Shown: piece by piece, positions 215-64,000 of the stretch | Layout: each line of letters begins with the position of its first letter | Numbering within the stretch: the first letter of the stretch is position 1 | DNA from: Cephalotus follicularis | Taxonomy: Eukaryota > Streptophyta > Magnoliopsida > Oxalidales > Cephalotaceae | Assembly (NCBI GenBank): GCA_001972305.1 | Contig: BDDD01001355.1 | Span: 36,529 to 100,528 of the forward strand | Length of the DNA stretch: 64,000 nucleotides | Direction of reading: 5' to 3' | Position numbers and translations under genes: made by a program | The notes under the pieces: model-generated | Told to the model about the DNA's origin: nothing | Database searches by the model: none | What the model saw: only the letters and a program-made list of their open reading frames with translations

Positions 215-560
215 AGTGTCGACGCTATGGACTGTTACGCGTAGGAATGTACACTGATTTCGCGATAAACGTCGACGCTTAAGGAAAGCGTTGACGCTCT
301 GGTTTGAATATGCATAGTGATGGACACGTGGATGTTGACGCTTGAGGTCCTACCTCAAAGCGTCGACACCAAAGCAATGAACGCTGACGCTCAAGGATCC
401 TTACCTTAAAGCGTCGACGTCAAGGACAATTGTTGACACTTAAGTCACTAGTTAAAGTGTTGACGCTTAAAGGGTATAAGCGTTGATGCCTAGGGTTAAG
501 CGGCGACGCTTAAGTGACTAATATGAACGATTTGGTGCCTAGAGGTTAGGTGTCGACGTC
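215..560. repeat. GTCGAC palindrome cluster, GCGTCGACGC flavour
   Basis: About a dozen spaced, degenerate copies of a palindrome with core GCGTCGACGC lie here, for example near 268 and 408. Many carry changes at the central CpG (GCGTTGACGC), as expected from decay of methylated cytosine. The spacing is irregular, roughly 20-40 bases. The cluster holds the same LTR position as the CAGTCGACTG cluster at 13765-14060. Confidence 0.85.
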
Positions 561-1491
561 GAACGGGTCGGGTTGCATTTTGAGCATATGTTTGCTTGCA
601 TATTATTATGGATTGGTCGAGATTTCCTTGCCTTGTGCCGGTTAGCGTCGATGTAGGTATGAATTGAACTGTGAACTTAATTGTGAATTGAAATGTGATT
701 GAATTCTAAAGTGTTTTATCATTTTAGAAGTGCATACATAATTTTATAACAAATCATTATTTTACACGAAAATGTATATTTGTTAAATGTATATTTTCGA
801 AGGATTGAAACGTGATTTCAAAGACTGTTTACATTTTGAATAAATGTATTATTTCAAGTATTTTATAACTTATGAATTACTCGGAAAGGATTGATTTTTG
901 GATTGATTGAGCTTTCCTAGCACCACGGGACAGTTAGCTGTGTGCTTTCCTAGCTCAGGGCCGGTTAGCATCAATGATTGAATTGTTTGATTGATTGTGA
1001 TTGTTACGCTGTTAGTGCGGTGACGGAGGTTGTCACTTACGCTAATGGCAGGTTGTGCTCTAGGGGCCAGGAGATGGCTAGGGACACCACACCGGATGGT
1101 CTTTCTCCGCTACTCGTCGGTTGACATCCACACTATGAGCTATCCTCCGCCTATGTGCCAGTTAGACTCATTTGTTTGTTGAATTTTCCTCCGCTACGTG
1201 CGGGTTAGTGTCAATTATTGATCGAGCTTTCCTCCGCCTATGGGCCGGTTAGCATCGACGTGAGATAATACTAACCTACGGGTGGTGGTTATCGAATACT
1301 GATTGAATTCATTGGTCCTTAGTGACATGACTGATGATTTGTGTTGATGTAGCCACTTGGCATGGTTGCGTAAGTATTGATCGAGATACATATACAAATA
1401 CATATTGTATATATATGGTACTGCATCATTATGCATTCATTACATGATTTACATTATTGTTGATCCCAAAAGGTATTTATACTTTCTCTAC

Positions 1492-1516
1492 TTAGCCGAG
1501 TGAGGACAAAGGCTAA
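1492..1516 (+). other. Conserved LTR stem-loop TTAGCC/GGCTAA
   Basis: Arms TTAGCC (1492-1497) and GGCTAA (1511-1516) flank the loop GAGTGAGGACAAA. The same arms and nearly the same loop occur in every family-B LTR in the window: 14802-14826, 41982-42006, 52327-52351 (minus) and 63862-63886. The arms do not vary, so there is no covariation evidence. It lies about 350-550 bases before the LTR end. A role in the transcript (polyadenylation or primer-region folding) is only a guess. Confidence 0.6.
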
Positions 1517-2056
1517 CCCCCTACAATTTCAGATTGACAGGGGCAATCGGACAAGTGCTGCTGAATCTGTGTTGGAAGCTTCTTTCCTGAATGTTGTTTT
1601 AATTGTATTGTATTGTAATAATCATACTCGTGTTTTAAGAGAATGATGAGACGTGCTTGTTAAGAATTATCAGTTGGATAATTGTATCAATTGGTTATTG
1701 AAATGATGGAATATTGTACTGGATTAATGTATAATAGTTTATGGCTTTACTAATTTGGGATAATGTATTATCGTATTTGATGGATAATCATTTAGTATGG
1801 ATTTTGTATTTAATGAAATACTGTATCAACATGTTTTGATCAAGCTCCGTTTTGAGGGCAATTAACAATGGAACGTCGTATTTTGGTAACACGTAGTATG
1901 GGATGCATGTTACGTTGTTAATTCGGCTTATAATTGAATGCTTCCGCTAGTTATTAATCATTTTGAAAGTTTTAAATTTCCGCGTAAAACTGTATAAGCC
2001 GGATATTATGTTGATTGCTACCATTATTATTGTTGTTATGGAAACGGGGTGTGACA

Positions 2057-6535: not shown

Positions 6536-6538
6536 TTC

Positions 6539-11299: not shown

Positions 11300-11462
11300 A
11301 CATGGCACTAAGCGTCGATGCTTAGCCCTAGGCATCGACAGTTTTAAAAAGCATAAGTATAAAGTATCAACGGTTTGTTTGAAAGCATAAGGCGTCGACT
11401 GTTTGGTTTAACACATAAAAGCATCGACAGTTAATAAGAAAGCGTCGACGGATTTGGAAGAA
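11300..11462. repeat. GTCGAC palindrome cluster in family-A LTR
   Basis: Five or six decayed copies of the GCGTCGACGC palindrome lie here (AGCGTCGATGCTTAG, GGCATCGACAG, GGCGTCGACTG, AGCATCGACAG, AGCGTCGACGG). They lie just upstream, in LTR sense, of the block shared with the D 3' LTR, which also has a cluster at that place. Confidence 0.8.
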
Positions 11463-13099: not shown

Positions 13100-13235
13100 G
13101 ACTGCCCAAGTGGGACAGTCGACTGGACTCCCTTTGAGTGGAACCAGCTGACTGTTGTGAGAGACAACCGGCTGGGGATGGTGTCGGCAGAGACAGCCGA
13201 CTGCCAAGATAAGGCAGTCGACTACCATGAGATGT
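13100..13235. repeat. CAGTCGACTG palindrome cluster, LTR 5' side
   Basis: Copies such as CAGTCGACTGG, CAGCTGACTG, CAGCCGACTGCC and CAGTCGACTACC occur every 20-40 bases. Most changes turn the central TCGA into CCGA or CTGA. Confidence 0.8.
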
Positions 13236-13764
13236 GTCAGTTAAAAACATGTTGGCAGTCTCATTTGGCAGAGAGAAAGGGAGAGAAGACAAAATTGGTG
13301 ATAGTGTCGGCTTGTGAAGAGAGAGACACAAAAATGGCAATAAAAACACATTCTCTCTTCTCTTCTCATCAGCAAATTCAAAGAGATAGAGAGTTGTGAA
13401 GAAGGAGAGGACAGTGGAGAGAAAAGAGAGAGAGAAGTTGTATCTCTCCAATTTTGAGCTTGGAATCTGGACTTGGAGGTCGAACCGGGCTTGGTGGAGT
13501 TGCTGGACGGATTCGGAGGCTTGGGAACTTGGATTGGAACTTAAAGAGGTGGATTGCAATTCCTAACTTGGAATTCTAAGGTAGGGGTAAATTTTATAAT
13601 TGTTATTTAAGTTCCGTTATAATGGAAGTTAATGGACGAAATGAATGTTATGGACTGTATTATGAGCATAAATGTGTATTATTGTTGTTGAATGCTCGTG
13701 TTTGGTTGGATTGAAGTGTGAAAGACATGCATTTTTCTGTTGTTTTTACCTACTGATGTAAATC

Positions 13765-14060
13765 CAGTCGACTGCCAGGGCGGGTAGCCGACTGGAGGGC
13801 TAGAATAGCCGGCTATTCAGTGCAAACAGCCGGCTAATCAATGGGAAACAGCCGACTGGACGGAAGAACCAGTCGACTGTTCATACGTTTAATAGAACAT
13901 ATCTGCAGAAGGTTGTGTAGTCGACTGCCATTTGAGGGCAGCCGATTGGACGAGTAAGACAGCCGACTGTCAAGAGGAGACAACCGACTGTTAGAGGAGG
14001 CAGCCAACTGCCAGGACTAGGACAGCCAGCTGTCAAGAGGAGACAGCTGACTGGTTAGGG
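13765..14060. repeat. CAGTCGACTG palindrome cluster, LTR middle
   Basis: About twelve copies lie here (CAGTCGACTGCC, AGCCGACTGG, AGCCGGCTA and similar). Flanking LTR sequence on both sides aligns with L1, where the same slot (215-560) holds GCGTCGACGC-type palindromes instead. Confidence 0.85.
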
Positions 14061-15274
14061 ACTGACCCGCACTTTGAGCATATCTTTGCATTGCATTTTG
14101 ATATGAAATGAATTGATGATTGGAATATGGATGATTCTAAAGTGTTATATTCATTTTAGAAATGTGTACATGATTTTATACAAATCATTATTTGATATGA
14201 AAATATATATTTTTATAAATGTATGTTTTCAAGGGATTGAAATATGGTTTCAAAGATGCAATACATTTTGATATAAATGTATTATTTCCAGTACTTTATA
14301 AACTACTTGGAAACGATTTGAAATGAATTGATTTGTTGACTGTGATTGATGTCGTACTGGCTGGGGTGACAGAGTGTCACTAATGGCTGGTGGTGGGGAT
14401 GCTCTCCTAGGTGCCAGGAGATGGATAGGGACGCCCAAGTACAATGTTACCTGACAGATAGTGCGAGTAACACGGGTTACCATGATTGCTGAACACAGAG
14501 TGCGAGCATCATGAGTTGATTGATTTGACTTGCTTCGTGACCTGGGAGTCGGGGGCCGGAGTAAGAGTACGACGTCGGGGCCAGGAGATGGCGGCGCTCT
14601 TCGTACCGTTGATTGGATTGATTTTGACCTTTGAGACATGATTGATGATTTGATGGTTGTAGCCACTTGGCATGGTTGCACCTATTGGCATATATATATA
14701 TACATATGTATATGTACGTGTGGCGATATATTATATATTGCATCATGAGTGCATTCATTTCATGACATTCATTATCACTGACCTTGAATTACACTTATGA
14801 TTTAGCCGAGTGAGGACAAAGGCTAACCCCCTACTATTGCAGATTGATGCAATGATGTGGATATCGACCGTAAGCGGCGAATCTGTGGGGAGATGGAGTT
14901 TATTGTTTAAATAAATGTCTTAACAATGTATTGAGAACCGTATTATTTTGGATTTATGTATTAATGATGTTTATTGACTATGATCACGCCCCGTTTATGG
15001 GCAATCGACGATGGCTCAATTATGTTAATGTTGGAATCATGTGGTATGGGACGCATGATTCGGTTTGTTTATCTAGCTTGTTATTAAATGCTTCCGCACA
15101 TGTGAATGGAATTGAAGTTTTTAATTTTATCATATTTGTATAGGCTGGATAACGTGACATTGATTGCCTTTACCGCTTTAATGCTGTGATATCGGGAACG
15201 GGGTGTGACAATAACATATAACAAAAACACAACATATGACGATAATCACATAGACATCGAAACGGGATATTACA

Positions 15275-16079: not shown

Positions 16080-16580
16080 TCATATGGGAAAATTTCTCCC
16101 CAAACAAAACCACCACGTGTCCTTTGGAAAAATGATACAAGTGTCCTCTGAAGATACAGACACGTGGTCGGGTCATTTACAATCTTAAAAGATAACGCAC
16201 AACATAACGCTCCGACGCAAAATAGGGAAATGTCGCTGTTTCCTAGGGGTACAATAATCATCTCCATAATGCAAGCTTATAGTAGGGAGACAGTTACAAC
16301 CAGGTGATCCTATAAATACCATAAAGCAACACTTTACACATGTTGGTCAATTGTAGACTTAAAGAACCTTACTGTTTCTTCTCTGCCATTATCTAACTTA
16401 AGCATCGGAGAGTGCCCGGGAGTAAAATCTCATGGACCTACAATTAGTTTGCTTCTTGTGTGTAGGGACGATCACAAAACACTTTACCACCAGCACCCTC
16501 AGAGCATTCACCGCGTTTTCCTCTGCAAATCAAACCTCTATACGCAGGGGACTGTTGTATAGTTGATTTTGACATCAACA
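16080..16580 (+). repeat. 5' LTR of the Tat element
   Basis: The LTR is 501 bp, ends GACATCAACA, and pairs with 26116-26600. It has a TATA box at 16311. The primer binding site follows within three bases. Confidence 0.88.
16311..16317 (+). promoter_or_regulatory. TATA box in Tat 5' LTR
   Basis: TATAAAT is about 230 bases into the LTR. The same box is present in the other LTR at 26332-26338. Transcription would start about 30 bases downstream. Confidence 0.6.
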
Positions 16581-16582
16581 GC

Positions 16583-16599
16583 TGGCGTTGTCTGTGGGA
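16583..16599 (+). other. Primer binding site of the Tat element
   Basis: TGGCGTTGTCTGTGGGA lies two bases after the LTR end. It resembles the TGGCGCCGTCTGTGGGA primer site common in plant Tat-lineage elements. The exact tRNA is not established here. Confidence 0.7.
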
Positions 16600-16625
16600 T
16601 ACGCAACAAAAAAGCTATTTGAACC

Positions 16626-18215: not shown

Positions 18216-18302
18216 AGGTATGTTGACAGGGATGCTCCCCAAGAAATAAGGAAGCGCAGAGAACAAGCTCCGCAGCAGGAAGATGAGCAACAGCCAAGGG
18301 GT

Positions 18303-18790: not shown

Positions 18791-18911
18791 AAACTTAATA
18801 GAGGCAATAGTATCAACAAGGCACCTATTTGTAAAATTCCCAACCAGGTTCGGTGTGGGGGAAGTCACAGGATACCAATAGGTAGCAAGGCAGTGCTACA
18901 AGACTGCCATA

Positions 18912-19720: not shown

Positions 19721-19734
19721 AGAGAAGATACCAG

Positions 19735-46939: not shown

Positions 46940-47380
46940 TGATGTGTACGAATGGCGTTGACGCATATCCTCTTATGCGTTGACTTCTGTAGCTTTCTGC
47001 GTTGATAGTCCAAGCTCAAGTTCATCTTCAGCTCTGTTCACGTTGACGCGCATCCATGGCATTAACGTATAAACTCAAGATGTTGACGCCATAATGTCTT
47101 TGCGTTAACGTCTAAACTCATTGTCAAAAATGTGCACCATTTGTGTTGACGTCTTGATATGGCGTTGACGTCTATAGACAAGATGTTGACTCTACTTGTT
47201 TTCTGTGTTGCCGTCCAAGCCATTGACGTTGGCGTCTTCCTAAGGGCATTGACGAAAATCATAAGATTCCCAACACGTTGACGATAATAGGGATGGTGTT
47301 GACGAGAATCATCCTGTAAACCCATATGAGGTACTTAAACCCAGAACGTTGACGCCTAAGTCTTAGTCGTTGACGCCAAT
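46940..47380. repeat. GTTGACG motif cluster (decayed palindromes)
   Basis: Repeated CGTTGACGC, CATTGACG and TGTTGACGC motifs spaced 15-40 bases. They differ from GCGTCGACGC mainly at the central CpG. A smaller set continues in the leader at 49440-49680. Confidence 0.75.
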
Positions 47381-47554: not shown

Positions 47555-47890
47555 ATCTCCCTATTTTTTATGATGACAAAACAAACACAATAAAAAGTAT
47601 AAAAGTGCATACTAATTCAATAAAAGTCATGTCAACAATTTTCAACATATGTAGGATATACCAATTCAGCAGTAAAACTAGCAGTAGAACTATATCCATA
47701 ATCCACATTTGTAAGCATATAACTCCTTCTTTATAAGCATTCATAAGCATAACAATAAGTCTACTACCATTCATAACCATTTATAAAAAGCTCATATATC
47801 TTCAACATATGCATTACATCATTCATAAACTACTCCCCCTTTTTGGAAATCATCAAAAAAGGTTGAGTAATAAGAACTCCCCCTAAATTC
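47555..47890 (-). other. Multiple polypurine-like tracts
   Basis: Minus-strand purine tracts are AATAGGGAGAT at 47555-47565, adjoining the LTR, AAAAAGGGGGAGTA at about 47831-47845, and TAGGGGGAGTTC at about 47874-47885. Repeated tracts upstream of the 3' LTR are a known Sirevirus feature. The rest of the stretch is AT-rich and non-coding. Confidence 0.65.
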
Positions 47891-48146: not shown

Positions 48147-49301
48147 TCATTGCTCTTGAGATCCTTCTTCTTCTTGTTCAGATGAGGAAATGTTACTAGC
48201 TTCAATAACACCTTTTGCTATGAGCTTCTTCTCTAGTCTCCTTTGTCTTTGTCTTTGATCATTGAAGAGATCTAGATACACTCCTCGTAAGTTGTCCATT
48301 TTGATGTCCACTTTGTTCATTTTGGTATTGAGTTTCTTTGTCTCATCTAAAATAGACTCCAAATACAAAGAATAGTTGTTGCTGTTGGCTTGTGTTGTGG
48401 GGCAAGGGTAGTTCTAGGCCTTTGAGGTTCACCTTGCTCCTCAACATTTTCTTCATCAATCCTTCTTTTCCTTCCACCTTCTTTAGGCAGCCACACATTG
48501 CCTTTTCCAGCTTCAAATTCTCTCTTCCAACCCATTCTCTTCAAATAGGAAGCATTATAAACATCTCCCACATCAATCCTTGAAGGTACTTCATTTTCGG
48601 GCAAAATACCAAAATGGGTAATAAGCTTAGTGATTACCATTCCACATGATAATGCACCCTCTACCTTAGAATAGGCTCTAAGCATATTCTTCATGATCAA
48701 ATGGGGTAAATTCAGAGGCTTACCAGTTACCACATGCCACATAATGTATATATCATGGTAACTCATCTTCTCATGTCCACCAGAGGTAGGTAGAACATGA
48801 GTGGCGACAATGTGGTGGAGCAGCCTATGCTCAGCACCTAGCAAATTGGTAGGCTTTGCCATGCCTCCAAACACATTTTCATTTGGGTAGAAAACCCTTA
48901 AACAGTCTTCCAAAACCAATTACGGATCTTCCGGCCATTTCTTGGTTTCAAAAAATCTAGACCCATCAGCAGGTGCTTCTAGAATCTCACTTAACAGTTT
49001 ATCATCAAACTTAATCACAGTTTTACTAACTTTAGTCTTAATCTCCAATTTATCACAGTCATCACTAGTGTTGAACATGTTGCTATAGAACTCTTTAACA
49101 AACTCAACATAATAAGGAACATTGATTGTGAAATAGTCTTTCCATCCTAGAGCAGAAAATCACTGTTCTAAAGAGAAATTATCACCTGTTGTGAAGCCAA
49201 AATCCACGATCCTTCCACTGAGAACCTTCCTTCCAGCAAAGCTTCCCTTATATCTTGAACCAAAAGGATTCTTGCTTCCAGGATTCTTCTTTGGCATGAT
49301 T
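48147..49301 (-). pseudogene. Plant-transposon-protein-like coding remnant
   Basis: A minus-strand protein-coding remnant starts at a likely Met near 49300 (MPKKNPGSKNPFGSRYKG). It includes DYFTINVPYYVEFVKEFYSNM and LLGAEHRLLHHIVATHVLPTSGGHEKMSYHDIY segments, an Arg/Pro-rich linker, and a coiled-coil-like acidic end near 48150-48360. The middle resembles the 'putative plant transposon protein' domain often annotated in plant retroelements; function unknown. It takes the place where gag-pol would be. About two breaks. Confidence 0.55.
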
Positions 49302-49955
49302 AAAGGTGATCTTGGTGAAAAAGTTGAGTTTTTTTTTAGGTTAAAAAACGATTTTGCAGAGAGAAAAATCGAGAGAGGGAAAACAGGGATGCAAATAGGT
49401 GTTGACAAAAAAGCCCAAATCTATATATATCTGGTGTTTAGGCATCGACGTCTAACATACACGTTGACGTTAATCGTGTACATACATGTACAGGGGATGA
49501 TAAAGTTAATGCCATTGTTGACATGAAAGCATAAACGTTAATGCTAATATGTAGCATTGACGCTAAAAGCATAGAAGGAGAAAACATTTTCGTTAACGCG
49601 TAAAAAAAAAAGGTTGTATAAGCGTTATCGTGTATATTACCGTTGACGTTAATATATAGCGTTGACATGAAAACGTTTTTAAAACATGGAAACTTGATTT
49701 TTCAAAACTCTTTCTTTCCAAATATTTAACACATCAAAGTATTAAGAGATATTGCATATTTAACAACAGCAAACAAGATATTGCATACATAGTTATTCAA
49801 ACATCAATATGCATAAGTAATTCATCTTTTTCAAAAACAACATAATCATGTAGCATTTCAACAACCAATTAAAAGCAATAAACACTTACAATGTGTGTGT
49901 GCTTGGATCATCTTTATGTCCAATTCTCCTCAAGCATACCTATAAAACAAAAGGT
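49302..49955 (-). other. Leader of the Sirevirus-like element
   Basis: Non-coding leader. Decayed palindromes (ATCGACGTC, CGTTGACGTTAA, GCGTTGACATG) lie at 49440-49680. The remainder is AT-rich with nothing recognised. Confidence 0.5.
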
Positions 49956-50119: not shown

Positions 50120-50190
50120 GCCTCAAACAGCCGACTGTCACAGGGTAACAGCCGATTGCTTTGATTCAGGGGGTGACAGTCGACTGGTCT
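50120..50190. repeat. CAGTCGACTG palindrome cluster, 5' side
   Basis: Three copies (CAGCCGACTGTC, CAGCCGATTGC, CAGTCGACTGG), at the same LTR position as 13100-13235 and 39800-39885. Confidence 0.75.
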
Positions 50191-51054
50191 GGCACAGACA
50201 GGTGTCTGTGCATGGCATGTAAAACAGAGCAGTGGCAGCCTAAACGTGTCTCCCTTGATAGATGCGTGCCACCAGGTGTGCAACTGATGGAATCGGATTA
50301 ACCAATTCCAATGCCATAAATGGACTAAGGTGCATAGGGTGTAGAACAAAATTTTATTCAACAAAATATGCAGCGGAAGAACACCCAACAGAAGTAAAAA
50401 CAGTCCATTATGGCTTGACCACAGGCCACATGGATCACCACATCAACACAAGAGTTGAATTGGTGTCACCATAGCAAGTAATGGTGACACACAAACATGG
50501 GAACTAGAGAGGGAGACAAGGAGATATACCTACGGTGATGGCTCCTTCGTCTTTGCCGCAACAAGCTTGCAAAGACTCCCTCAAATGGTTCCAAAATCCC
50601 TGATTCAGCAACCGCTCCCAACCAACAAGAACACAATAAAACCAGCCTGTGTTCTTCACTCTCTCTTCTTCACAAAACTCACAAAGGGTGCATTGGTGTA
50701 GACAAAGGTTGTCAATATCAATCCACCCTAGATAAGCTACAATGCTTGGTGTATAATCACAGAAGGAATGCCAAGAGAACCAGAAAATCCCCTTCCTATT
50801 TTTCCTAGAAGAAGCTCACTTGAAAATGCTCTCCCTTGAATACCTTATACCAACCCCATTTCTCTCTTACTCTAAAGCTCAACCTCACCTCCACTTCTTG
50901 ATCATGTTCCTATATTTTAGGAATCATGGAACCATGATCTAACCATGTCCCCCGTCATGCAGAGAAGGGAGTAAACCATCGATAGTAGGAGGTAGTGGGA
51001 GGGAGAAAACGTGTGCATGATTTTGTCCAACCAGGGAACCCACGTCGCACACTA

Positions 51055-51205
51055 AGTGTCGACGCCTTCCAATAAGCGTCGACGCTTATATGTAATAACA
51101 CTATACGTTTCAAGTGTTAAGCGTCGACTATTTCCTAGAAGGCGTCGACGCTTTGTCTAATCTTACGCGTCGATGCTTTCCTACAACGCGTCGACGCTTA
51201 GACAG
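51055..51205. repeat. GTCGAC palindrome cluster in copia LTR
   Basis: Six copies, including the perfect 16-bp palindrome TAAGCGTCGACGCTTA at 51073-51088. The matching cluster in the other LTR is at 61105-61260, with the same perfect copy at 61131-61146. Confidence 0.88.
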
Positions 51206-51979
51206 GCTGGTTAGGTAAATAGAGTCTAACTCTTAAATGAGTCTAACTCATTTTATCCCTTCTAATATTGATTAAGTAAGATCAAACAAATGTGTTTCCA
51301 CAAAATGCAAAATCCACATAACCGATATTTGACACCAAGACTTAATATGTCCAACATATTAAAGAACTAATCATTATTGGGCAGGGACCCTATAAAGTCT
51401 TGGTTAAAACTGGAGGTGTTCATAAATTACCGAAATATCCCTAGGGTTCGGTTTAGCCATTCTAAATGGTCCTAGACAAATTTAAATGCTCTCGGAATAA
51501 TATCTAATATTATCCAGATGGAAAAATCAATCTAATTAATTTTTTTCACAATTTCTTACACACCTCATTAACCCTAGATTTTCTAAATTGTCGGTTCACG
51601 TGTACTATGATCCCTTGTCATACTTGGCTCCGATTGAGGTCTAGGGTAAGGATATGTGTCAACCCCAGATAATACCTCAATGGCTAAAATATCTGATCAT
51701 TACTAGGACCTTTGGTAAACTCTCCGGAAATCTAATTTCCAGTCTACCTCAACCTTGGACAAGGATTTCAAAAGTCCAAAGTATAATCAGATCATAATAG
51801 AGCCGATCACCTTCGCTCAGGTGTGACAATCCCATATTGCGCACTCACTTATATTCGCATAGATTCGATCATACCCAAATACCACCCGATTGCCAGCCCT
51901 GCGCAAGGACTGGGTAAGGTGGAGATCAAAGCATAATCGTCTCCATACATTATAGAGCAGTCGCTCAGGTCTAAGGATC

Positions 51980-54612
51980 TGTCACACCCCGATTTTCGGT
52001 TCCATAACATTAAGACCAGCATATATGGTGATATCATAATTTAACATAATATTCCAGCATTTCATTCAACAGTTCATTAAATAATATGCGGAAGCAGTCA
52101 ATAAGCCGGAATTTAAAACACAAGTCGTCCGCACGCAGCCCATACTACGTGCAGGTAATCCAACATAAATATCCTTACATAAGGAAGTACGATAGCAACG
52201 GGGTATGAACCGTTCAATACATTACATAACATAAAAGGAAATAACAACCTTCAACCGAAAGTAGAAGCTCTCCAAGCTTCATCCACAAACTCCAAGCCTT
52301 CGCTTAATCTGAAACTGTAGGGGGGGTTAGCCGTTGTCCTCACTTGGCTAAGTAGGAAGATAATGCATGCTAAGGAATATACAAATGCAACATGTATGAC
52401 AGTTTATATTTAAAATATCATTTAAATGTGCCAATATATAAGCAACAATGCCAAGTGGCCATAGACAATCCATATGCAAAGATACCACTCAAGGGTACAA
52501 GCAATCAGTCCAGTAGTTTGTCCGAAGACCATTATTGGGCTCAAGACGTCGCTAACCCCTAGCCTACGTCGAGCCACCTAGCTATCACCCCAACTCCGCT
52601 GATGATAGGAGGTAAACAGTGCTGCCGGCATTTAGCGGGCAGATAACAGTGCACGGTCTGCGATGCAGATCAGTATGGTGAATAAGCACTAGCGAACTCC
52701 TGGCACGTAGGCTCACCGCCGTAATCAGTGATATCTTCCCATCACTCGACCACGGTATGCATAGACAATCAATCAGTCAATTCAGTTCAATGATATTACA
52801 TATATATATGATATGCAATATAAAATGTTTTCTTTAGAAACATATAACATTTCAGTGATCGTACATCTCATAAGAGGAAACGATATCAGTACAGCAGTGG
52901 TTTCCAATTCGGAAACAAAACAGTAGGTGATAAAACAGTAGTTGATAAATCAGTAGTTTCTTGTAAATAATAGTTTTCATATGAAAATGGTGTTTAAACC
53001 GTGAATTGTACATATAGCACATAGTTCGTTCGATCGTTGTAATATCAGTAGTAGGGTTGTTAAATAACATCAAACAGTATATACTATATGGTGGTAGCAT
53101 ATACAATTCAATAACAATACAAAACAGTAGCAATTCAATCAATGTTATGCAATTTCTACCCAGAACAGTCGACTGCCCTCAAGAATAGTCGACTGCTTTG
53201 GTTGAGTAGTCGACTGCTTTGCCTTGGCAGTCGACTGGATAGGTTGAGTAGTCGACTGCAATTATGAACAGTCGACTGCTTCTGCCCAGAAAGTGCAGGC
53301 AGTAGCAGTTTGTATGCAATGAAATGTCCAATTTCATACATGCAATCATACAGAAAATAATAGACATGATATGCATAAAATATCTTCCATAACATATCAC
53401 TACCCCTACCTCAAAAGCTTATCCCAAGATGAATTGCAATTGACCTTTCTCTTTGAGCTCCAAGCCTTCTTACCAACAATCTTTCAATCCTTTTAATTTC
53501 AGCAGGTTCAATCTATAACATGCATGTTTACAGACACATGCATCAGTACTAGTAGGTTCTAATTATCAGATACGATTACTACTTCATCAGTAGTTTATTA
53601 CCAAATCCATCAAGTCCTAAAATCCCATTTTTACAACCTCCTTTGAACTCTATCTCACTAATATTCAAACTCGGATTCATTGATCTTAAGTGTGTTGACA
53701 GAAGATGCATATTTACATTTAGGGAACCAGTAAGCATATCTTGACCTTAACATCAACTATAATCCAATCTAGAGGTTATAGCCATCATTTCCACTTGATC
53801 CATTTACCAATTTCCATTTCAATTCTAGAATCTGTTATCTTTAATTATGTTGACAGAAGGTATCCAACATTCTCCTAGTTACATTATCATCATAACAACA
53901 GAGAATTTGGATTGAGAACTTACCAAGAGACCAAAGCTTCAAAGGCTCCTACTTTGAGCTTTCTAATCCATCAACATGCAAGCTCCTTTAATTCTCTAGC
54001 AATTCCCCTCTATCTCTAGTGTTTTCTAACACTCTCCCACTGTGCTAGCAGTTGATATAAGGCTCAGGAAATCTTGAATTCGCCAGAGCATTTACTCAGC
54101 TTCTCTCTCTCACATGCATTTCTTTTCTCTCCTCTTTTCTATCTCTTTCTCACCTTTCTCTCTTTTCTATTTTGTTTTGCAGGTTGCAGAGAACATGCAA
54201 GCATTCTATCTTGCATGCTCTGGCAGTCCCTGACACGCATGACACCTGCCCCTTCATGCAATGCCCCATTGATTCAGTCTAACAGGCATGCACAGACACC
54301 TGTTCTGTACCGATCTAGTCGACTGGAGGCATTGGGCAGTCGACTGTCCACAATATGCACCAGGCAGTCGACTGCTCCCCTGTGACAGTCGGTTGCCCCT
54401 TCATAAACCAGGCAGTCGACTTCCTCCCTGTGGCAGTCGGCTGTCAATGGTTGTTTTAGGGTTTCTTAAGTTTGATTTTCACCAAATTGCATCTCCATTC
54501 ATCCCAAGCAATTACCAATCACAAATACAATAATTGAACATCAAATTCAAAGGAGTGCACATTTTATTAATCATAATTACAATGTACACGAATTGAATTT
54601 GCGGTTATTACA
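51980..54612 (-). mobile_element. Solo LTR, family B, nested in copia LTR
   Basis: The LTR is 2633 bp, minus sense TGTAATAACCGCAAATTC to CGGGGTGTGACA. A perfect GGATC duplication (51975-51979, 54613-54617) proves one insertion. It has CAGTCGACTG clusters at 53160-53280 and 54310-54450 and the TTAGCC/GGCTAA stem-loop at 52327-52351. It is the innermost element of a five-level nest, hence among the most recent insertions. No coding sequence. Confidence 0.92.
53160..53280. repeat. CAGTCGACTG palindrome cluster, regular spacing
   Basis: Six copies with a period near 20-24 bases, for example the perfect one at 53166-53175. The minus strand gives an apparent Ala-Val-Asp-Cys/Ser repeat protein, which is a by-product of the spacing. 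A second cluster is at 54310-54450. Confidence 0.88.
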
Positions 54613-55137
54613 GGATCAAACGAGTTTGAGAACTCGCTAAGTGATCATCACTTATACACAACCATAACAAGTAGGAGTAATTACTCACATGAGAACAGCG
54701 ACTATCCAAATAGTGTCTCCTACGTTGGTCCTGTTCAGTGTACACGCTCCCAGCGCGCACCCCATATTTGCCCTAGTGTCCAACACATATGGTAGTGAGA
54801 GAATCCATCCTCCAATTCAATGAGCAGGCAACATACGCGCAAGTCTATCCGGTTCACTAATTCCCACAAAGTGAACCTATGACTTGGAACTAATTCGACA
54901 TAAGGAATAAGGTAACCAATCTCACAGCCTCCATGCTAGGCCTCCAACCTTATGTCAGGCCATCACAAGTGTAAGTAGGTAAATAATAAACTACTTCAAT
55001 TAAGTGATAAAACACAAGTGATATAGCCATAACAAAATTAGCACACATCTTATATACAAGGAATAAGATTGTTTCATACAAGATAAGATATAATATGGCA
55101 ATCCATCTAATGGCTTGTCGGGTCACTATATCTAACA

Positions 55138-55148
55138 ATCTCCCACTT
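55138..55148 (-). other. Polypurine tract of the copia element
   Basis: Minus-strand AAGTGGGAGAT directly before the LTR start TGTTAGATATAG. Confidence 0.85.
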
Positions 55149-56580
55149 GACCCTCAAGCCATGAACTCCTATAGCCTAGACCCATCGTCCCACGATGATG
55201 CTCCAAAGCCTTGGTGCCCATTGCCTTGGTCAGTGGATCTGTTGTGTTCTCCTCTGAGGAGACCCTCTCTATCTGTATATCTCCCCTACCAATAATCTCA
55301 CGGATCAAATGATAGCGTCGCTCGATGTGTTTGGATCGCTGGTGAGACCGCAGTTCCTTGGCTTGTGCTACAAGCTCATTATTATCACAGTATATTACAA
55401 CTGGACTAATAATGGATGGAACAACTCCTAGTTCAGTAATGAACTTGCGCATCCATACACCCTCCTTGGCGGCATCTGAGGCTGCTATGTACTCAGCTTC
55501 TGTGGTAGAATCTGCAATAGTCCCTTGCTTTGAACTGCGCCAGCTCACAGCTCCACCATTAAGTACAAAAACGTACCCAGAGATAGATTTGTGATCATCC
55601 GGATCACTATCAAAACTGCAGTCTGTAAAGCCCTCCAATTTCAGCTCACTATCTTTTCCATAGATCATGAACATATCCTGAGTCCTCCTAAGGTACTTCA
55701 GGATTCCCTGGACCACTTCCCAGTGCTTCTCACCGGGATCAGACTGAAAACGACTTGCCATACCCAGGGCAAGTGCAACATCAGGCCTAGTACATAACGT
55801 GGCATACATGATCGACCCTACTGTTGAAGCATAAGGTATCCGACTCATGCGTGCTCATTCTTCAGATGTCTGAGGAGACATCTTTTGAGAAAGATGAATT
55901 CCTTCGCCTATTGGCAATAGGCCTCTCTTGGAATTTTCCATGCTAAACCTCTTCAGCACCTTGCTGATGTACTAGCTTTGGGAAAGCCCATGCAACCTAT
56001 TGGATCTATCCCTGAAGATCCTAATACCCAGTATATATGTGGCTTCTCCCAAATCTTTCATGGAAAAATTCTTAGTCAGCCATATCTTTACAGAATGTAA
56101 CATCCCTACATCATTCCCAATGAGTAGGATGTCACCTACATATAGCACTAAGAAAGTGATACTAGGTCCCTCTTGCTTTCGATAAACACAGGGCTCATCT
56201 ACATTTTTAACGAAGTCAAAAGCTTTGACTGCTTCATCAAAATGTAGATTCCAGCTATGAGATGCTTGCTTTAGTCCATAAATGGACAGTTCGAGCTTGC
56301 ACACCATGTGTGGGTGCTCGGAAGATGTAAACCCCTCGGGTTGGGACATATAAATATCCTCTTCAAGACGCACATTTAAGAATGTCGTCTTAACATCCAT
56401 TTGACATATATCTTAATCATAATGAGAGGCAATAGCAAGCAAGATCCTAATGGATTTAAGCATGGTGACAGGTGAGAAAGTTTCAGTATAGTCGACTCCA
56501 TGTCGTTGCCTATACCCTTTTGCCACTAATCGATCTTTATAAGTCTCGATTTTTCCATCTGCATTCATCTTCTTCTTGAA
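55149..56580 (-). pseudogene. Copia reverse transcriptase and RNase H
   Basis: Reverse transcriptase blocks are YRQRHGVDYTETFSPVTMLKSIR, MDVKTTFLN, KLELSIYGLKQASHSW, a YVGDILLIGND block and ATYILGIRI (about 56520-55990). RNase H has STVGSIMYATLCTRPDVALALG, EAEYIAASDAAKEGVW, VIYCDNNELVAQAKE and HIERRYHLIREI, ending in TDPLTKAM (about 55850-55180). It ends a few dozen bases before the polypurine tract. Confidence 0.88.
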
Positions 56581-56599
56581 GATCCATTTGCGGTATGGA

Positions 56600-57760
56600 G
56601 TAGAAGGCACGGATTTTGAAGGAATCTGATTGAAGATATAAGCAGCTGTATCTAGGGCATAACCCCAGACATAGGTAGGAACGTCTGTAAAAGACATCAT
56701 CGATCGAACCATGTCTAACAAAGTCCGATTCCTCCTTTTGGACACACCATTATGCTGTGGTGTTCCAGGAGGAGTCCACTGAGATAGAATTCCGTTATCT
56801 CTAAGATAACCTAGGAATTCAGCTGACAAGTATTCACCACCTCGGTCCGACTGAAGTACTTTAATCGATTTACCTGTCTTTTTTTCTACTTCAAGTCTGA
56901 GCTCCTTAAATTTCTCAAAGGATTCTGACTTGTGTTTCATCAGATACACATAACCATACCTAGATAAATCATCAGTAAAAGTTATGAAGTAGATATAACC
57001 ACCTCGCACACTAACTGACATAGGACCACATACGTCAGTATGGACTAAGCCCAGTAAGCCCATAACCCTTTCTCCTTGACCAGAGAAGGGTGATTTGGTC
57101 ATCTTTCCCAATAAACAGGATTCACAAGTTGGATAGGACTCGAAGTCCTGGATATCAAGGAGATCATCCTTAACCAACTGTGATAGCCTAACATCACTAA
57201 GATGACCAAGTCTACACTGCCAAGTATAGGTTTTATTTAGCTCAGTTTCTCTTTGTCTTTTCTTATTATTACTTTGCTCAATGGACAAGACATTGGATTG
57301 TGAAGTATTTAAGACATATAATCCATTGTTGATAACACCATTACTAACACAAACATTGTTTGAATATATATAACATCCAATGTCTTGGAATTTAAGCTCT
57401 AAGCCCATACCACATAAGTGAGAAACACTTATAATATTCCGTACAATATTCATAACAAAATAACAAGGATCCAATGTCAATACATAACCATTACATAAAT
57501 TCGCATCACAAATTCCAACAACTTGAGCAATGATCCTAGATCCATCACCAAGCCTTAAGTCCAGGTCTCCAGCTCTAAGCTTTCTAACTTTTCTTAGTCC
57601 CTGTAATGAATTGCAAAGATTAGTTCCACATCCAGTATCTAATACCCATGAAGACCTACTATTCAAAGCTACATTAAGTTCAATCATGAACATACCTGAT
57701 GTACTCGCACCATGCGGGTTATCAGCAGAGACAGCAGCAACAGCAACACGACAATCCTTT
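56600..57760 (-). pseudogene. Copia protease and integrase
   Basis: The protease signature WVLDTGCGTNLCNS is near 57650. The pre-integrase part has WQCRLGHLSDVRLSQL and CESCLLGKMTKSPF (about 57220-57080). The integrase core has LVHTDVCGPMSV, VLQSDRGGEYLS and TPQHNGVSKRRNRTLLDMV (about 57060-56710), with the three acidic blocks in order. Confidence 0.88.
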
Positions 57761-57762
57761 TT

Positions 57763-58590
57763 CTAGTGCCCAGTCTTACCGCACTGGAAACAAGCACCTT
57801 CAGCAACTAACCTCTTCATTCGATCTTTGGCAACACTCCCACTAGCTCCAAGCTTCCCCTTCTTCTTCTTACCCTTGCCTTTTGTGTTGACAGGCATGAG
57901 CACGCCCTTGCCTTTACAAGAAGACGAGGCACTGCTCTTTCCTTGGGCAGACCTAGAAGAAGGAAGAAGTAGGGAGTGGGTCTTTGACTTCCCAGAGTCA
58001 AAATCAGCCTCAGCCATCCTCAACATAGCGATCAGCTCAGATAGAGTTACCTCTATCTTGTTCATGTGAAAGTTCACCAAAAACTATGAGAATGACTTAG
58101 GAAGGGATGTCAGAATAAGATCTACATATAGATCATGATCCATGACAAAACCTAATTGAGCCAGCTGCTCAATCATGTCTATCATCTTCAATCCATGCTC
58201 ATTGACTGAAGCTCCCTCTTGCATCTGAGCCTTAAAGAGTTTGCATGATAGATTGAACCTTTGAGTCCTAGACTCAGCTCCATATATCTCCTGGAGGTGG
58301 AGTAGTATAGCAGATAAGGTCTCAATCTTTTCATTCTAACACTGAAGGTCAGGTGTCAGCCCTAGAAGGGCAAGACATCTAGCCTGCTCGTCATCCTCTA
58401 GCCACTTGGCTAGTCGCTCACTCTCTTCAGGCGTCGGATCTTCACCCAGTGAAGGAGGCCCCCAAGTCATCACATAGGCCATTTTATTGGTCGTAAGGAC
58501 GATCTTGAGGTTACGGTGCCAATCGTTGAAGTTGGGCCCCTCAAATTTGTTTGTCTCAAGTATACGGGACATTGCATTTGATAAAGCCAT
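57763..58590 (-). pseudogene. Copia gag
   Basis: It begins MALSNAMSRILETNKFEGPN near 58590. FNDWHRNLKIVL and ARCLALLGL are typical of copia gag. It continues to a Lys/Gly-rich linker and the start of a zinc knuckle, CFQCGKTGH, near 57790. It would form the particle. Broken in about two places. Confidence 0.83.
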
Positions 58591-58599
58591 TCTAGCAAC

Positions 58600-60339
58600 C
58601 TAGATAAGGAAATATAAGCATGAGTTAGCATTTATTCCAATTTTAATATATGACAACCATAACACTTGGTCTTTAGTGCTTATGGTTCCTCCCACTATTC
58701 TAATCGTATCCCATACCCACATATGGGACTCGAGAGGTCTAACTTCCTAGTGGGGATTGAAATCCATCGCAATCATATTATAGCCTCAGCTAGGGCATGA
58801 CAAACTATAATATATCCAATGGGTAGGCTTTCTTTCCAATTTGTATCTAATACAAGATCCAATCATAGTATTCAGCCTTAGATTCAATATGGCCTCAGTT
58901 AGGGCGTGACAAACCATCAGAATCTTGATAAGTCAAGTACCCATAATTTTCATTGGAATGCACTAGTTTTAACACCCACACGTAGGCATGTCCAAGTGCT
59001 AAAACATAGCCACCCTTTGCGGTGCCCAGCACCGACGTTGACATAAATCCCCAAGTTATTAGCCTCAGCTAGGGCATGACAAACCAACAACCTAGGAACA
59101 CTACTCAAAGAAAATTTCGGAAGGCCACGGGGAACCACTCCATGGGTTCCTACATTAAGACTTATTATTAAAGCGAGGGAATTTGCGGTCTCAAATTTTA
59201 ATTACCAAGCCATTAATTAATTTATTGGTTGTATTAGCCAATTCCAATTAATTACGGCTTAGCATGCAAGACGTGTATCTTATGCACCTTGGACATATTT
59301 CTAAAATATGTCAATGGATTGGCAAGGACATTATTAGTAGTGACTTTAGCTCAAAATCACTACTAGGTCTTCCTAGGTGTTACGATATTAAAACTATTTA
59401 TTACAACAAATGCCATGCATACAAGGCCTTCAAAAGCCTTGTACTTTATTTCTCCTTTCCTCCATCTTTCCTTGCAAGGTCTTCTTTTACAAAAAGAACT
59501 TTACATTTTCGAAAGGAAAAAATACATTTAAAAGTTACAAGGAAAAGTTAAAAAAGAAAGGAAAAATAAATGGTGCACGTAGGCACCTTATTACAGACCT
59601 TTAAAATAATAAATAACATCCATCCACACATAGAAAAACCATAAACTAGGTCAATGTCCTTTTTCGGGCCATCCATTGTGCATAAGACTTATATAATATC
59701 CAATATAATAATACCAGAAAATAACGCATGCCAAAAATAATAACTAATTATAAAATTTAATTTAAGGATTGTCAATATCGGTTAAACTCCCACTAAATCA
59801 CGCAATGATTTTGATCTTCTAAGTGCCACAATGTATAAAATCCAATTTTATTAAAAACAGAATTTTTTTTTAATAATGCTAAAGCGTCGACGCTTCCTAG
59901 AAAGCGTCGACGCTTACCTCTAAGGCACGAAAAATCAAAAATTGAATAAGCGTCGACGCTATGACAAGGCGTCGACGCATATAAAGAAAACAGTTGAACA
60001 AGCGTCGACGCTTAAACGTGAGCGTTGACGCTTTAACCCCCTGGGCAGTTTCTGCAATTTTAAAATTGCAGAGACTTAGTTTTGAACATTAGGCAAATTC
60101 AATTCCAGTCATTTCAAGATAAATTACAGCCATATTCTACACCATGTAGGTTTCTGAAACATGTTCAAAAGTCAATTTAACTAATCTCCAAGATTAATTA
60201 TCAATGAAATTTAATTTCATAAACTAGTTCATTAAAGCACTTTGAATATCAAGTTTAACCCAAACAACACATCCTTTAAATTAAACCTTCAATCAGTACA
60301 TCATTCATAGCACAAATTCAACTAAGGATGATGTGGGAC
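58600..60339 (-). other. Long leader of the copia element
   Basis: About 1.7 kb of non-coding sequence lies between the primer binding site and gag. At about 58720-59100 a phrase (CCTCAGCTAGGGCATGACAAAC and variants) recurs three times about 120-190 bases apart. At 59880-60040 there is a GTCGAC cluster like the one in the LTRs. The stretch 59300-59750 is AT-rich with nothing recognised. Confidence 0.6.
59880..60040. repeat. GTCGAC palindrome cluster in copia leader
   Basis: Six copies, five nearly perfect (AAGCGTCGACGCTT at 60000-60013, others at about 59883, 59903, 59949, 59966). This is a second cluster in the same element, outside the LTRs and just downstream of the primer binding site in sense. 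Confidence 0.9.
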
Positions 60340-60351
60340 GCTCTGATACCA
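60340..60351 (-). other. Primer binding site, initiator-Met tRNA
   Basis: Minus-strand TGGTATCAGAGC is one base after the LTR end. It is an exact match to the complement of the plant initiator Met tRNA 3' end. Confidence 0.9.
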
Positions 60352-60352
60352 C

Positions 60353-62027
60353 TGATGGAATCGGATTAACCAATTCCAATGCCATAAATGGACTAAGGTG
60401 CATAGGGTGTAGAACAAAATTTTATTCAACAAAATATGCAACGGAAGAACACCCAACAAAAGCAAAAACAGTCCATTATGGCTTGACCACAAGCCACAGG
60501 GATCACCACATCAACACAAGAGTTGAATTGGTGTCACCATAGCAAGTAATGGTGACACACAAACATGGGAACTAGAGAGGGAGACAAGGAGATATACCTA
60601 CGGTGATGGCTCCTTCGTCTTTGCCGCAACAAGCTTGCGAAGACTCCCTCAAATGGTTCCAAAATCCCTGATTCAGCAACTGCTCCCGACCAGCAAGAAC
60701 ACAATAAAACTAGCCCGTGTTCTTCACTCTCTCTTCTTCACAAATCTCACAAAAGGTACATTGGTGTTGACAAAGGTTGTCAATGTCAATCCACCCTAGA
60801 TAAGCTACAATGCTTGGTGTATAATCACAGAAGGAATGCCAAAAGAACCAGAAAATCCCTTTCCTATTTTTCCCAGAATAAGCTCACTTGAAAATGCTCT
60901 CCCTTGAATACCTTATACCAGCCCCATTTCTCTCTTACTCTAAAGCTCAACCTCACCTCCACTTCTTGATCATGTTCCTATCTTTTAGGAATCATGGAAC
61001 CATGATCTAATCATGTCCCCCATCATGCAGAGAAGGGAGTAAACCATCGGTAGTGGGAGAGAGAAAACGTGTGCATGATTTTGTCCACCCAGGGAACCCA
61101 CGTCGCGCACTAAGCGTCGACGCCTTCCAATAAGCGTCGACGCTTATATGTAATAACACTATACCTTTCAAGTGTTACGTGTCGACTCTTTCCTAGAAGG
61201 CGTCGACGCTTTGTCTAATCTTACGCGTCGACGCTTTCCTAGAAGGCGTCGACGCTTAAATAGGCTAGTTAGGTAAATAGAGTCTAACTCTTAAATGAGT
61301 CTAACTCATTTTATCCATTCTAATATTGATTAAGTAAGATCAAACAAATGTGTTTCCACAAAATGCAAAATCCACATAACCCATATTTGACACCAAAACT
61401 TAATATGTCCAACATATTAAAGAACTAATCATTATTGGGCAGGGACCCTATAAAATCTTGGTTAAAACTGGAGGTGTTCATAAATTACTGAAATATCCCT
61501 GGGGTTCGGTTTAGCCATTCTAAATGGTCCTAGACCAATTTAAATGCACTCGGAATAATATCTAATATTATCCAGATGGAAAAATCAATCTAATTAATTT
61601 TTTCCACAATTTATTACACACCTCATTAATCCTAGATTTTCTAAGTTGTCGGTTCACGTGTACTATAATCCCTTGTCATACTTGGCTCCGATTGAGGTCT
61701 AGGGTAAGGATATGTGTCAACCCTAGATAATACCTCAATGGCTAAAATATCTGATCATTACTAGGACCTTTGGTAAACTCTCCGAAAATCTAATTTCCAG
61801 TCTACCTCAACCTTGGCCAAGGATTTCAAAAGTCCAAAGTATAATCAGATCATCACAAGTGTAAGTAGGTAAATAATAAACTACTTCAATTAAGTGATAA
61901 AACACAAGTGATATAGCCATAACAAAATTAGCACAAATCATATATACAAGGAATAAGATTGTTTCATACAAGATAAGATATAATATGACAACTCATCTAA
62001 TGGCTTGTCGGGTCACTATATCTAACA
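60353..62027 (-). repeat. 5' LTR of the copia element
   Basis: The LTR is 1675 bp, pairs with 50285-55137 and is followed by the GCAAC duplication. GTCGAC cluster at 61105-61260; possible TATA box at 60911-60917 (minus). Confidence 0.9.
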
Positions 62028-64000
62028 GCAACATGAAAGAGTGTTGTCTTGCATGTGCTCTATTCCTTCTGCAAACCTGCAGACCTACAACCAGCAAAAC
62101 AGAAGTGAAAAGAGTGAGAAAAGGTGCATGTGAGAGAGAGAAGAGAAAAGAGGGAACCTTGAGTTATGACTAGAACTGGTCACTGGAACCACGAGTTCCA
62201 TATATCAGTGTTGCATGAGTGTTCAAAAAGGTTAGTAATCACCTGAAGAGAAGAGTTCAACCACTGTATTGATTCTGCATGATAGTTGGGGTTCCAAGTG
62301 GAGTAAAAAGCTTTAATTTAAGAGGTAAGCTTCTGCATTATTTCAAATGTGTTATAATCATTCAATAGGTATATATGTACTGATTGTGTACTATATATAT
62401 CTTCTGTTAACACACACATATAGTTAGTTGCTGGAATTTGAGTTAAGTGGATATAAGGTTAGAACTCAGAAGAAAGGTTGAGGCTTAGGAATTCCTGGTA
62501 AGTTACTGGTTTGATTCAGTGTCGATATAGTAGTTACTCAACCATATTCGGTTACTGATTTTCGTTGCATATACCTGTTAACATGCACCTATAGCATTAA
62601 ACTTCTGGATTGTTGGTGTTGAGTGAAGTTGGAACTCAAAGAGAAGAATCAATCCAATTTGATTATGGGATAGCGATTGAGGTAGGGGTATTGACATGTT
62701 TTAGAAGATATGATATGTATAGCATGTCTGGATAATTTCTCTGTGATTGCATGTTATTATTTTGGCTTCAATTGGAAGTTGAACATGCATACCCTATTTT
62801 TATGAAACTGCTGGCTGACGTTTCTGGACAAAAACAGTCGACTATTTAAACCCAACAGTCGACTGCTCAATGTAAACAGTCGACTGCCTAATGAAAACAA
62901 CCAGCTATTCTTATGAACAGTCGACTGTTAAGTGATAAATTACTGATATTAGCTGTTGTTAGGCTTTAAATCGTGTGTAATTACCCTGGCCTCAACATGG
63001 GATAATTGTAACAGTCAATCCTGGCCTTATGCAGTTACATTATAGAGAGTAAACAACTTATGCACTCCTTGTGAGAGTTGTGCAAGAATCACTAGGGTAC
63101 GCTAACATCTTGTTGAACCCTCGAATTGTGATTGTTCCGCTACTATTTAATGATGCTGATATACATACTGTATAGCTATTATGTGTCCATAAACTATTGT
63201 TACACTTAATATTAATGATTGAATCAACTAGTGCTATAAGCACGAATATGGATTTTCTTCTTATTCTTTTCAAAATGAAAACTTATTGTCAAATGAATTA
63301 CCGATTTTCCTCCAATGAGAGGCACCATTACTGTATTGAATACTGTTCCTCCAAAAGAAATGACAGTCACTGAACTATTAAATGTTTCAAAAGAAAACAA
63401 CTTTTATATTACATATTATAGATATATGTAATATTGCTATTGAATTGATTGAATTGTTTGTCTATGCTTATTGCCGTGAGTCGAGTGATAGGAGACATCA
63501 CTGGCTACGGGGTGGTCCTAGGTGCCAGGAGTTGGCTAGAGCTTCCACCAAACTTATCTGCAATGCAGATTTCATTTGTTACCTACCCACTAAATGCCCA
63601 CAGAATTGACCTGATCTATCATCCTCAGAGTGTTGGGTGATAGTTAGGCGGTGTGCAGTCATAGCTAGGAGTTAGCGACATGTGACACCCGAACCACTGT
63701 ATTGATTGATTTTACCCTTGTGCGGTATTCTTGAATTGTATTGTCTATGGCCACTTGGCATGATTGCTTACGTATATTGAAATACTTATACATATGTTAT
63801 TTCAAAATAAACTATCATACATGTTTACATTTATATATTCTTTCTCATGCTTTATTCCTACTTAGCCAAGTGAGGACAACGGCTAACCCCCTACAATTTC
63901 AGATTAAGTGAAGGCATTCGGGGAAGTGCTGTTGAAGCTTTATTGGAGAGTTTCTATGTTGTTAAGGTTGCTATTCACTATGTTTTGTATTGAAATGAAC
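62028..64000 (+). repeat. Family-B LTR, part after the copia insertion
   Basis: Continuation of the LTR begun at 49956. CAGTCGACTG cluster at 62830-62935 (perfect copies at 62856-62865 and 62877-62886), possible TATA-like CCATATATCAG near 62199-62209, and stem-loop at 63862-63886. Non-coding; the LTR end lies beyond the window. Confidence 0.82.

Follow-up and report, generated by a model that had tools for sequence, protein, structure and literature searches.

Palindromes with a GTCGAC core, set in regularly spaced arrays of two flavors that almost never mix, occur in long terminal repeats (LTRs) of both Ty1/copia and Ty3/gypsy retrotransposons of Cephalotus follicularis and, in elements that look like Sireviruses or their derivatives, also upstream of Transposase_32 (PF20167), a gene lying in the position of an envelope (ENV) gene. 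The arrays were studied in a 64,000-nucleotide stretch of contig BDDD01001355.1 (assembly GCA_001972305.1, positions 36,529 to 100,528, forward strand), hereafter the window, and in further contigs of the same assembly. Close reading covered about 320 kilobases (kb) of the genome, mainly one contig (C1), and a 264-kb sample comprises the window plus C1:1-200000; genome-wide counts refer to the whole assembly of 1.577 Gb, with the same words read backwards serving as the control. The explanation considered most probable, at about 0.62, is that the arrays are promoter-proximal cis-regulatory platforms of the Sirevirus repeated-motif (RM) kind, read by a dimeric DNA-binding protein.

The window contains 67 copies of GTCGAC, compared with a mean of 5.0 in 100 dinucleotide shuffles (standard deviation 2.03, maximum 11), and 68 matches to GCGTCGACGC with at most two mismatches, compared with 3.98 expected. 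Across the assembly, exact CAGTCGACTG, representing the C flavor, is found 197,377 times against 939 for its reversed word, and exact GCGTCGACGC, representing the G flavor, 73,186 times against 121. A chance origin of the excess is ruled out by the shuffle and reversed-word counts, and the enrichment of GTCGAC palindrome clusters proposed in an earlier sequence-only reading of the window is borne out, the motif density being unlike that of shuffled sequence. Symmetry exceeds the core, with matching flanking dinucleotides at 106 of 208 GTCGAC sites in the 264-kb sample against 57 expected; among 11 other 6-mer palindromes in this sample, a clear excess of flank symmetry was found only for ATCGAT (13 vs 5.0), with slight excesses for GAATTC (8 vs 6.8) and CCATGG (7 vs 5.3). 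TA repeats aside, the two flavors are the only palindromic 10-mers that stand out in the 264 kb (77 and 25 copies, the next reaching 11). The G flavor extends past the 10-mer to AAGCGTCGACGCTT, the C flavor avoids certain flanking bases beyond it, and CAGCCGACTG is a common variant of the latter. Decayed forms of the G site abound (GCGTTGACGC, 40,524 with both strands counted), those of the C site being less numerous (CAGTTGACTG, 21,361 vs 4,173 for the control).

Neighboring sites are mostly separated by 19-22 base pairs (bp); further classes stand at 41-43 bp and, mainly in particular LTR families, at 27-28 bp. Among the matches listed on contig C1, with distances of 15-45 bp allowed, the 86 C-C neighbors divide into 57 at 19-22 bp, 12 at 27-28 bp, 17 at 41-43 bp and none elsewhere; G spacing is looser, with 35 of the 50 G-G neighbors among the matches listed at 19-22 bp. 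Segregation of the flavors is nearly complete, exact-site neighbors with a gap of 5-35 bp comprising 64,805 C-C pairs, 5,066 G-G pairs and 4 mixed pairs (either order) genome-wide. The sequence-only reading had named the two flavors, both of which are seen here, and had missed their near-absence of mixing, the fixed spacing and the link to the env-position gene. In 60 spacers from 15 hand-picked arrays, identity is low, averaging 0.44 within arrays or families and 0.35 between families, and since the spacers inside arrays are mostly unrelated, the period of about 21 bp does not stem solely from recent tandem duplication; pure tandem duplication is ruled out as its source. Spacers of G arrays are often TTCCTAGAA or TTCCCAGAA, as at 59884-60031 (leader) and 61114-61255 (LTR) in the window and, elsewhere, in several of the G-G pairs listed.

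With the sites masked, the 55 clusters of at least two sites fall into 23 sequence groups, a count in which a single LTR with two arrays can make up a group and nesting links a few groups together. Placement of all clusters in one shared inserted segment, which the sequence-only reading had said would refute its view, is ruled out by the 23 groups. Flavor can also differ between homologous LTRs, that at window 13535-14775 carrying C sites and those at C1:155803-157000 and C1:181729-182442 carrying G sites. Identity outside the array block is 75-83% (83% downstream for C1:181729-182442, about 76% upstream for C1:155803-155912), and the array block itself is unalignable, ruling out a flavor switch via point mutation in an aligned array. 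The array behaves as a replaceable module, and convergence on a binding factor is favored over copying because homologous LTRs differ in flavor with the array block unalignable.

Both flavors are found in both superfamilies, with superfamily assignments resting on the nearest genes rather than on a reverse transcriptase tree. The C flavor occurs in gypsy LTRs at C1:168030-181356 and C1:184062-192643, which enclose RVT_1, and at C1:65432-73991, with pol identified by phmmer, and in the copia element C1:4376-10195, which has a copia gag. The G flavor occurs in the gypsy LTR pair C1:155063-156010 / 167047-168028, enclosing a gypsy integrase end, and in the window copia element 50283-61853 (minus strand). 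The latter comprises a 5' LTR at 60351-61853 with a G array at 61114-61255, a leader with a six-site G array at 59884-60031, an integrase and reverse transcriptase start at 56413-57762, and a 3' LTR at 50283-51795 with a G array at 51056-51197. The earlier proposal of one palindrome system common to copia and gypsy LTRs is therefore upheld, arrays being assigned to both via neighboring genes. Its extension to nearly every LTR family was too strong: in 16 LTR blocks hand-picked from 45 aligned-pair rows, motif CpGs are present in 10 and absent in 6. Two of these six are qualified cases, 48120 sharing its LTR with the site-bearing 48757 and 102703 having arrays just outside; the other four of the 16 examined (108558, 122887, 143047 and 192951) have no motif sites, and neither do three further pairs in the aligned-pair list (C1:84009, C1:75566 and window 16138).

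Transposase_32 provides the second setting of the arrays. A first look at the genome gave 13,073 candidates, of which 150 were scored, all 150 above the cut-off; contig C1 holds two carriers, one with a copia gag and one without detected gag or pol. The latter, C1:157624-162249 (L020, L021), is a 4.6-kb LTR element in which Transposase_32 is the sole gene found; its two LTRs together hold 27 C sites, and 4 precede the gene. The predicted proteins form two clades, designated C and G, with only 22-27% amino-acid identity between them. In the C clade, at least two C sites lie upstream in 18 of 20 genes from 20 contigs, usually at about -186, -166, -146 and -125, against a background of 8.3% among 5000 stretches of 600 bp drawn at random from the sample. 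An alignment of 18 related upstream rows, to which the C1 copy was added and from which L040 (mostly N upstream of the gene), L045 (short) and L048 (without sites) were left out, displays 98% identity in motif columns and 80% in other columns. Genome-wide, the start-codon region has 180 exact copies, and in 145 of them CAGTCGACTG begins 110-135 bp before the ATG. The G clade is represented by the 12 best-scoring loci, on 12 contigs, all with motif sites nearby (11 G, 1 C). Eight of the nine loci with a start codon have 3-10 G-type sites (at least 8 of 10 bases, counted without a background) in the 420 bp preceding it; for the ninth, L026, the upstream sequence amounts to just 40 bp, and the remaining 3 of the 12 gave no start codon. 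These upstream sites are mostly imperfect, with 29 of 53 being GCGTCAACGC or ACGTTGACGC and one an exact GCGTCGACGC, and a TATATAA word stands among them in both loci inspected, L034 and L036. The exception in flavor is L029, which has C sites only; judged from spacing alone, these look like a nested family-B LTR.

The ratio of nonsynonymous to synonymous substitution rates (dN/dS) of Transposase_32 is 0.15-0.17 at a synonymous divergence (dS) of 1.2-1.4 in five comparisons, all with the diverged copy L025, and 0.48-1.61 in ten comparisons of recent copies, indicating purifying selection at depth and about neutral change among recent copies. On inspection of the sequence, its C-terminal part resembles a coiled coil and contains basic stretches. 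No DNA-binding domain was recognized in Pfam or in a PDB sequence search, the latter giving one match, to a ribosomal protein (E 0.043), and the predicted fold of the window piece is uninformative (predicted local distance difference test, pLDDT, 40.8). The VANC proteins of Arabidopsis VANDAL transposons carry DUF1985; a search with PF09331 (DUF1985) gave 0 matches from 8 candidates, and 14 control genomes also gave none.

The carriers of Transposase_32 look like Sireviruses or derivatives because their polypurine tract, AT/TG junction and tract copies match. In both C1 carriers (C1:4376-10195 and C1:157624-162249) the junction is AT/TG and the polypurine tract AGGGGGAG stands exactly 10 bp ahead of the 3' LTR, and tract copies number 3 and 4 in these carriers and 2 beside the window gene. 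The AGGGGGAG octamer occurs 23 times in all, both strands included, in the 200 kb of C1 and is found in 4 of the 12 stretches L025-L036, which are cut at both ends. Immediately before Transposase_32, the end of a copia RNase H is found in 9 of the 20 C-clade stretches and in 1 of the 12 from the G clade. According to Bousios et al. (PMC2829016), RM clusters of Sireviruses stand in the LTR ahead of the TATA box, and a second location, upstream of ENV, is confined to elements that carry that gene. The carriers here likewise have an extra gene after pol with palindrome copies upstream, and Transposase_32, equated with ENV by position, appears to occupy the place where those authors put ENV. In all four Sirevirus-type LTRs examined, the array is followed within 160 bp by a TATA-like word, a count made without a shuffle control. 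The CGG-CCG signature of RMs is absent, the flavors here being CAGTCGACTG and AAGCGTCGACGCTT, and the window copia element 50283-61853 has no AGGGGGAG tract, yet arrays are present in its leader and in each of its LTRs. Because arrays occur in this tract-less element and in gypsy LTRs, the motif is not confined to Sireviruses in this genome.

In ten LTR pairs, CpG transitions affect 6 of 63 motif CpGs and 78 of 260 other CpGs of the same LTRs (Fisher p 0.0007 pooled, p 0.02 stratified by element), fractions that count transitions only and leave aside other changes (4 motif, 26 other). Lower methylation of the arrays would be one explanation of the fewer motif transitions.

Dyad form, helical spacing, promoter position and flavor purity together argue for DNA binding by a symmetric protein with two specificities. 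Each site is a 10-14 bp dyad with a central CpG, which would suit a symmetric, presumably dimeric, protein, and a distance of about two helical turns would place neighboring dimers on one face of the DNA, making cooperative binding possible. The two non-mixing specificities (CAGTCGACTG and AAGCGTCGACGCTT) may correspond to two reader proteins or two versions of one protein. With Sirevirus-type arrays located upstream of the LTR TATA box and of the Transposase_32 gene, binding would most likely activate both promoters or block silencing. Non-Sirevirus copia and gypsy LTRs would have acquired arrays of these two flavors in independent events, probably relying on the same readers in trans.

Several observations weigh against this platform explanation. 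Flavor purity is incomplete, with half-C half-G single sites at 4 of 208 in the 264-kb sample and near-match mixing in 2 of 55 clusters (C1:12216-12572 and window 32039-32087). The 27-28 bp class is incompatible with whole helical turns, and 15 of the 50 listed G-G gaps fall outside 19-22 bp. Promoter position is established only for Sirevirus-type elements because TATA counts are low elsewhere: a TATA-like word lies within 160 bp downstream for only 1 of 10 gypsy arrays, on strands assigned by us, and for none of the three window copia arrays, and even in Sirevirus-type LTRs a TATA-like word additionally flanks the opposite side of 2 of the 4 arrays. Copies inside one family are related and so are not independent. 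Finally, when folded as RNA, all six arrays examined surpass the average of their shuffles (z -2.5 to -10.6), with 0, 0, 0, 3, 0 and 1 of 200 shuffles as well folded as the respective arrays.

The identity of the reader can be filled in by two of the alternatives, which differ in assigning it to the elements or to the host. In the first, a tentative proposal that we rate as less likely than not, the reader is the element-encoded Transposase_32, binding dyads in its own promoter and LTRs and exploited by other elements. An array stands just upstream of the gene in both clades, each in its clade's flavor (C in 18/20 and 145/180, G sites nearby in 11/12), and such reading would explain the gene's own array-bearing promoter; with only two clades, this flavor match is close to a single comparison, the G-clade upstream sites are mostly imperfect (one exact of 53), and L029, one of 12 G-clade loci, has C sites only. 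Deep purifying selection, the coiled-coil-like C-terminal part, the basic stretches and the abundance of the gene (13,073 first-look candidates, 150 scored) argue for such a role, and the lack of a recognized DNA-binding domain, the fold with pLDDT 40.8, the dN/dS of 0.48-1.61 in recent copies and the many array-bearing elements without the gene argue against it. A precedent is provided by the VANC6 motif in the unrelated AT9TSD1, which is hypomethylated by VANC6 (PMC5735166). Transposase_32 would then be not an envelope protein but a DNA-binding activator or anti-silencer, its two clades and the two dyads forming two private networks exploited by copia and gypsy elements, a picture that remains doubtful. 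Host transcription factors of two specificities, such as stress or germline activators on which many LTR families converged, are possible readers of slightly higher probability, likewise less likely than not. They offer the simpler account of the many elements without Transposase_32, and are consistent with sharing across superfamilies without sequence homology and with arrays beside TATA-like words in Sirevirus-type elements. A GTCGAC core is not known to us from any plant factor, a literature search gave no plant factor paper with a GTCGAC motif (weak evidence), and two separate flavors in long arrays would, in our judgment, be unusual for host factors. On the other side, RMs mainly matched stress-related PLACE sites (Bousios et al. 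2010, PMC2829016).

Reading at the level of RNA, with neighboring sites forming hairpins that feed or evade small-RNA silencing, is improbable. The better folding of all six arrays accords with it, pairing would also favor a single flavor per array, and the same hypothesis has been proposed for maize Sireviruses (PMC10760457); yet hairpins are an automatic consequence of repeated palindromes and need no fixed spacing of 19-22 and 41-43 bp, each site is itself symmetric, and Sirevirus-type arrays precede TATA-like words. Hairpins may nevertheless matter for small RNAs. Very improbable is an origin of the arrays as a by-product of tandem duplication or as one mobile segment spread by nesting or recombination. 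The somewhat raised spacer identity within arrays and the out-of-register resemblance of C1:157893-158096 to C1:161477-161684 (76%) point in that direction, against which stand the 23 groups obtained with sites masked, the flavor purity, and motif columns far more conserved than spacers.

The remaining features of the window are mostly further arrays. A seven-site G-flavor (GCGTCGACGC) array at 216-559 lies in an LTR homologous to the C-flavor LTR 13535-14847, whose own five-site C-flavor (CAGTCGACTG) array is at 13765-13969; a three-site C-flavor cluster is found at 13116-13224 and a weak three-site G-flavor cluster at 11312-11451. The LTR pair 38248-38811 / 42347-42900 carries G-flavor arrays of seven sites on the left (38251-38554) and eight on the right (42350-42641). 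The two LTRs differ by slippage, as judged from a GTCAAC hexamer run of 5 units at 38367-38396 and 3 at 42466-42483, a word resembling a decayed core. A gypsy integrase end at 38976-39581 (plus strand), with SH3_Tf2-1 above and a chromodomain slightly under the cut-off, lies immediately to the left of the family-B LTR. This LTR holds C-flavor arrays at 39800-39879 (spacing 21, 28, 21) and 41186-41256, and in the family-B LTR region a 284-bp stretch occurs twice, head to tail, at 40207-40773 with 100% identity. Further C-flavor arrays lie at 53166-53278 (six sites, spacing 20, 21, 21, 21, 20), 54316-54443 (five sites) and 62835-62927 (four sites), and at 50128-50186 the C-flavor sites CAGCCGACTG and CAGTCGACTG are 49 bp apart. 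The locations given by the sequence-only reading agree at 216-559, 11312-11451, 38251-38554, 51056-51197, 59884-60031, 61114-61255 and for the C-flavor family-B arrays. They fail in part elsewhere: its 'D' LTR (36530-36591) has no exact core, only the imperfect sites ACGTCGATGC and GCGTCAACGC at 36558-36589; the cluster at 32019-32189 is degenerate, with five GTCGAC cores and mixed flanks; and its Sirevirus-like LTR (46955-47376) has no exact GTCGAC. The last is a GTTGAC-type array of 11 GTTGAC and one GTTAAC, with 6 of 11 gaps at 19-22 bp, located near two AGGGGGAG octamers (47833-47840 and 47877-47884, both minus strand) and the decayed Transposase_32 gene at 48189-49387 (minus strand). The open piece of this gene, 48350-48919, scores 44.4 bits in Pfam against a cut-off of 45, and two decayed G-type sites lie upstream of it at 49442-49563. 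A gypsy element at 16138-26600, with RNase H and LTRs without palindrome sites, contains an antisense Transposase_28-like open reading frame at 25181-25855 (minus strand), just under the Pfam cut-off. Two adjoining open frames at 17568-18788, the first without a Pfam match, both have relatives in C1:133727-135058.

Comparison with known systems places the arrays beside Sirevirus RMs, which they resemble in being palindromic, CpG-containing, of high copy number, and situated before the LTR TATA box and upstream of an ENV-like gene (PMC2829016); the Vitis RM, CGGTCGACCG, even has the GTCGAC core (Bousios et al. 2010, PMC2829016). That report describes RMs as Sirevirus-specific, with one motif per element and CGG-CCG in all but Tnd-1, whose RM also lacks the signature (PMC2829016), whereas here two flavors without CGG-CCG occur in one genome and extend to non-Sirevirus copia and gypsy LTRs. 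Clusters of palindromes in the LTR cis region are likewise reported from maize Sireviruses, where the palindrome is a different one, CACCGGAC-NNN-GTCCGGTG, tied to hairpins and small RNAs (PMC10760457). The same maize palindrome has been reported in Helitrons (PMC10760457), giving cross-superfamily sharing one precedent. The novelty supposed by the sequence-only reading is thereby reduced, palindrome arrays being already known as Sirevirus RMs; no description of a GTCGAC palindrome common to copia and gypsy LTRs was found in the open-licence literature. What is new is that the two flavors almost never mix, that arrays are present in non-Sirevirus copia and gypsy LTRs, and that arrays are tightly linked to the predicted promoter of Transposase_32.

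Should each flavor have one reader, two parallel networks with more than a quarter million exact sites would be shared by competing elements of both LTR superfamilies, a common landing platform for a DNA-binding protein that may show how retrotransposons stay switched on. The Sirevirus RM, described in 2010 with no reader identified, would gain a suggested function, and the plant 'envelope-like' gene would become a candidate DNA-binding factor. In sunflower, the extra open reading frame of Athila matches Transposase_32 (PF20167) and is predicted to be nuclear (PMC11728184), and VANC-like, element-encoded proteins shaping the methylation of LTR elements have been raised as an open question (PMC12844716); the excerpted texts on sunflower Athila and Tekay and on this proposal describe no palindrome arrays or link between open reading frame and motif (PMC11728184, PMC12844716). 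The VANC/VANDAL system of Arabidopsis offers a parallel in its short repeated noncoding motif, which differs by related protein and acts on the unrelated AT9TSD1, and departs from the present case in that VANDALs are Mutator-like DNA transposons with proven binding and demethylation (PMC5735166), whereas the present arrays belong to LTR retrotransposons, their motif has the form of a perfect dyad and the reader protein is putative. If the proposed reading is true, the VANC idea of an element carrying its own antidote to silencing would be extended from DNA transposons to LTR retrotransposons.

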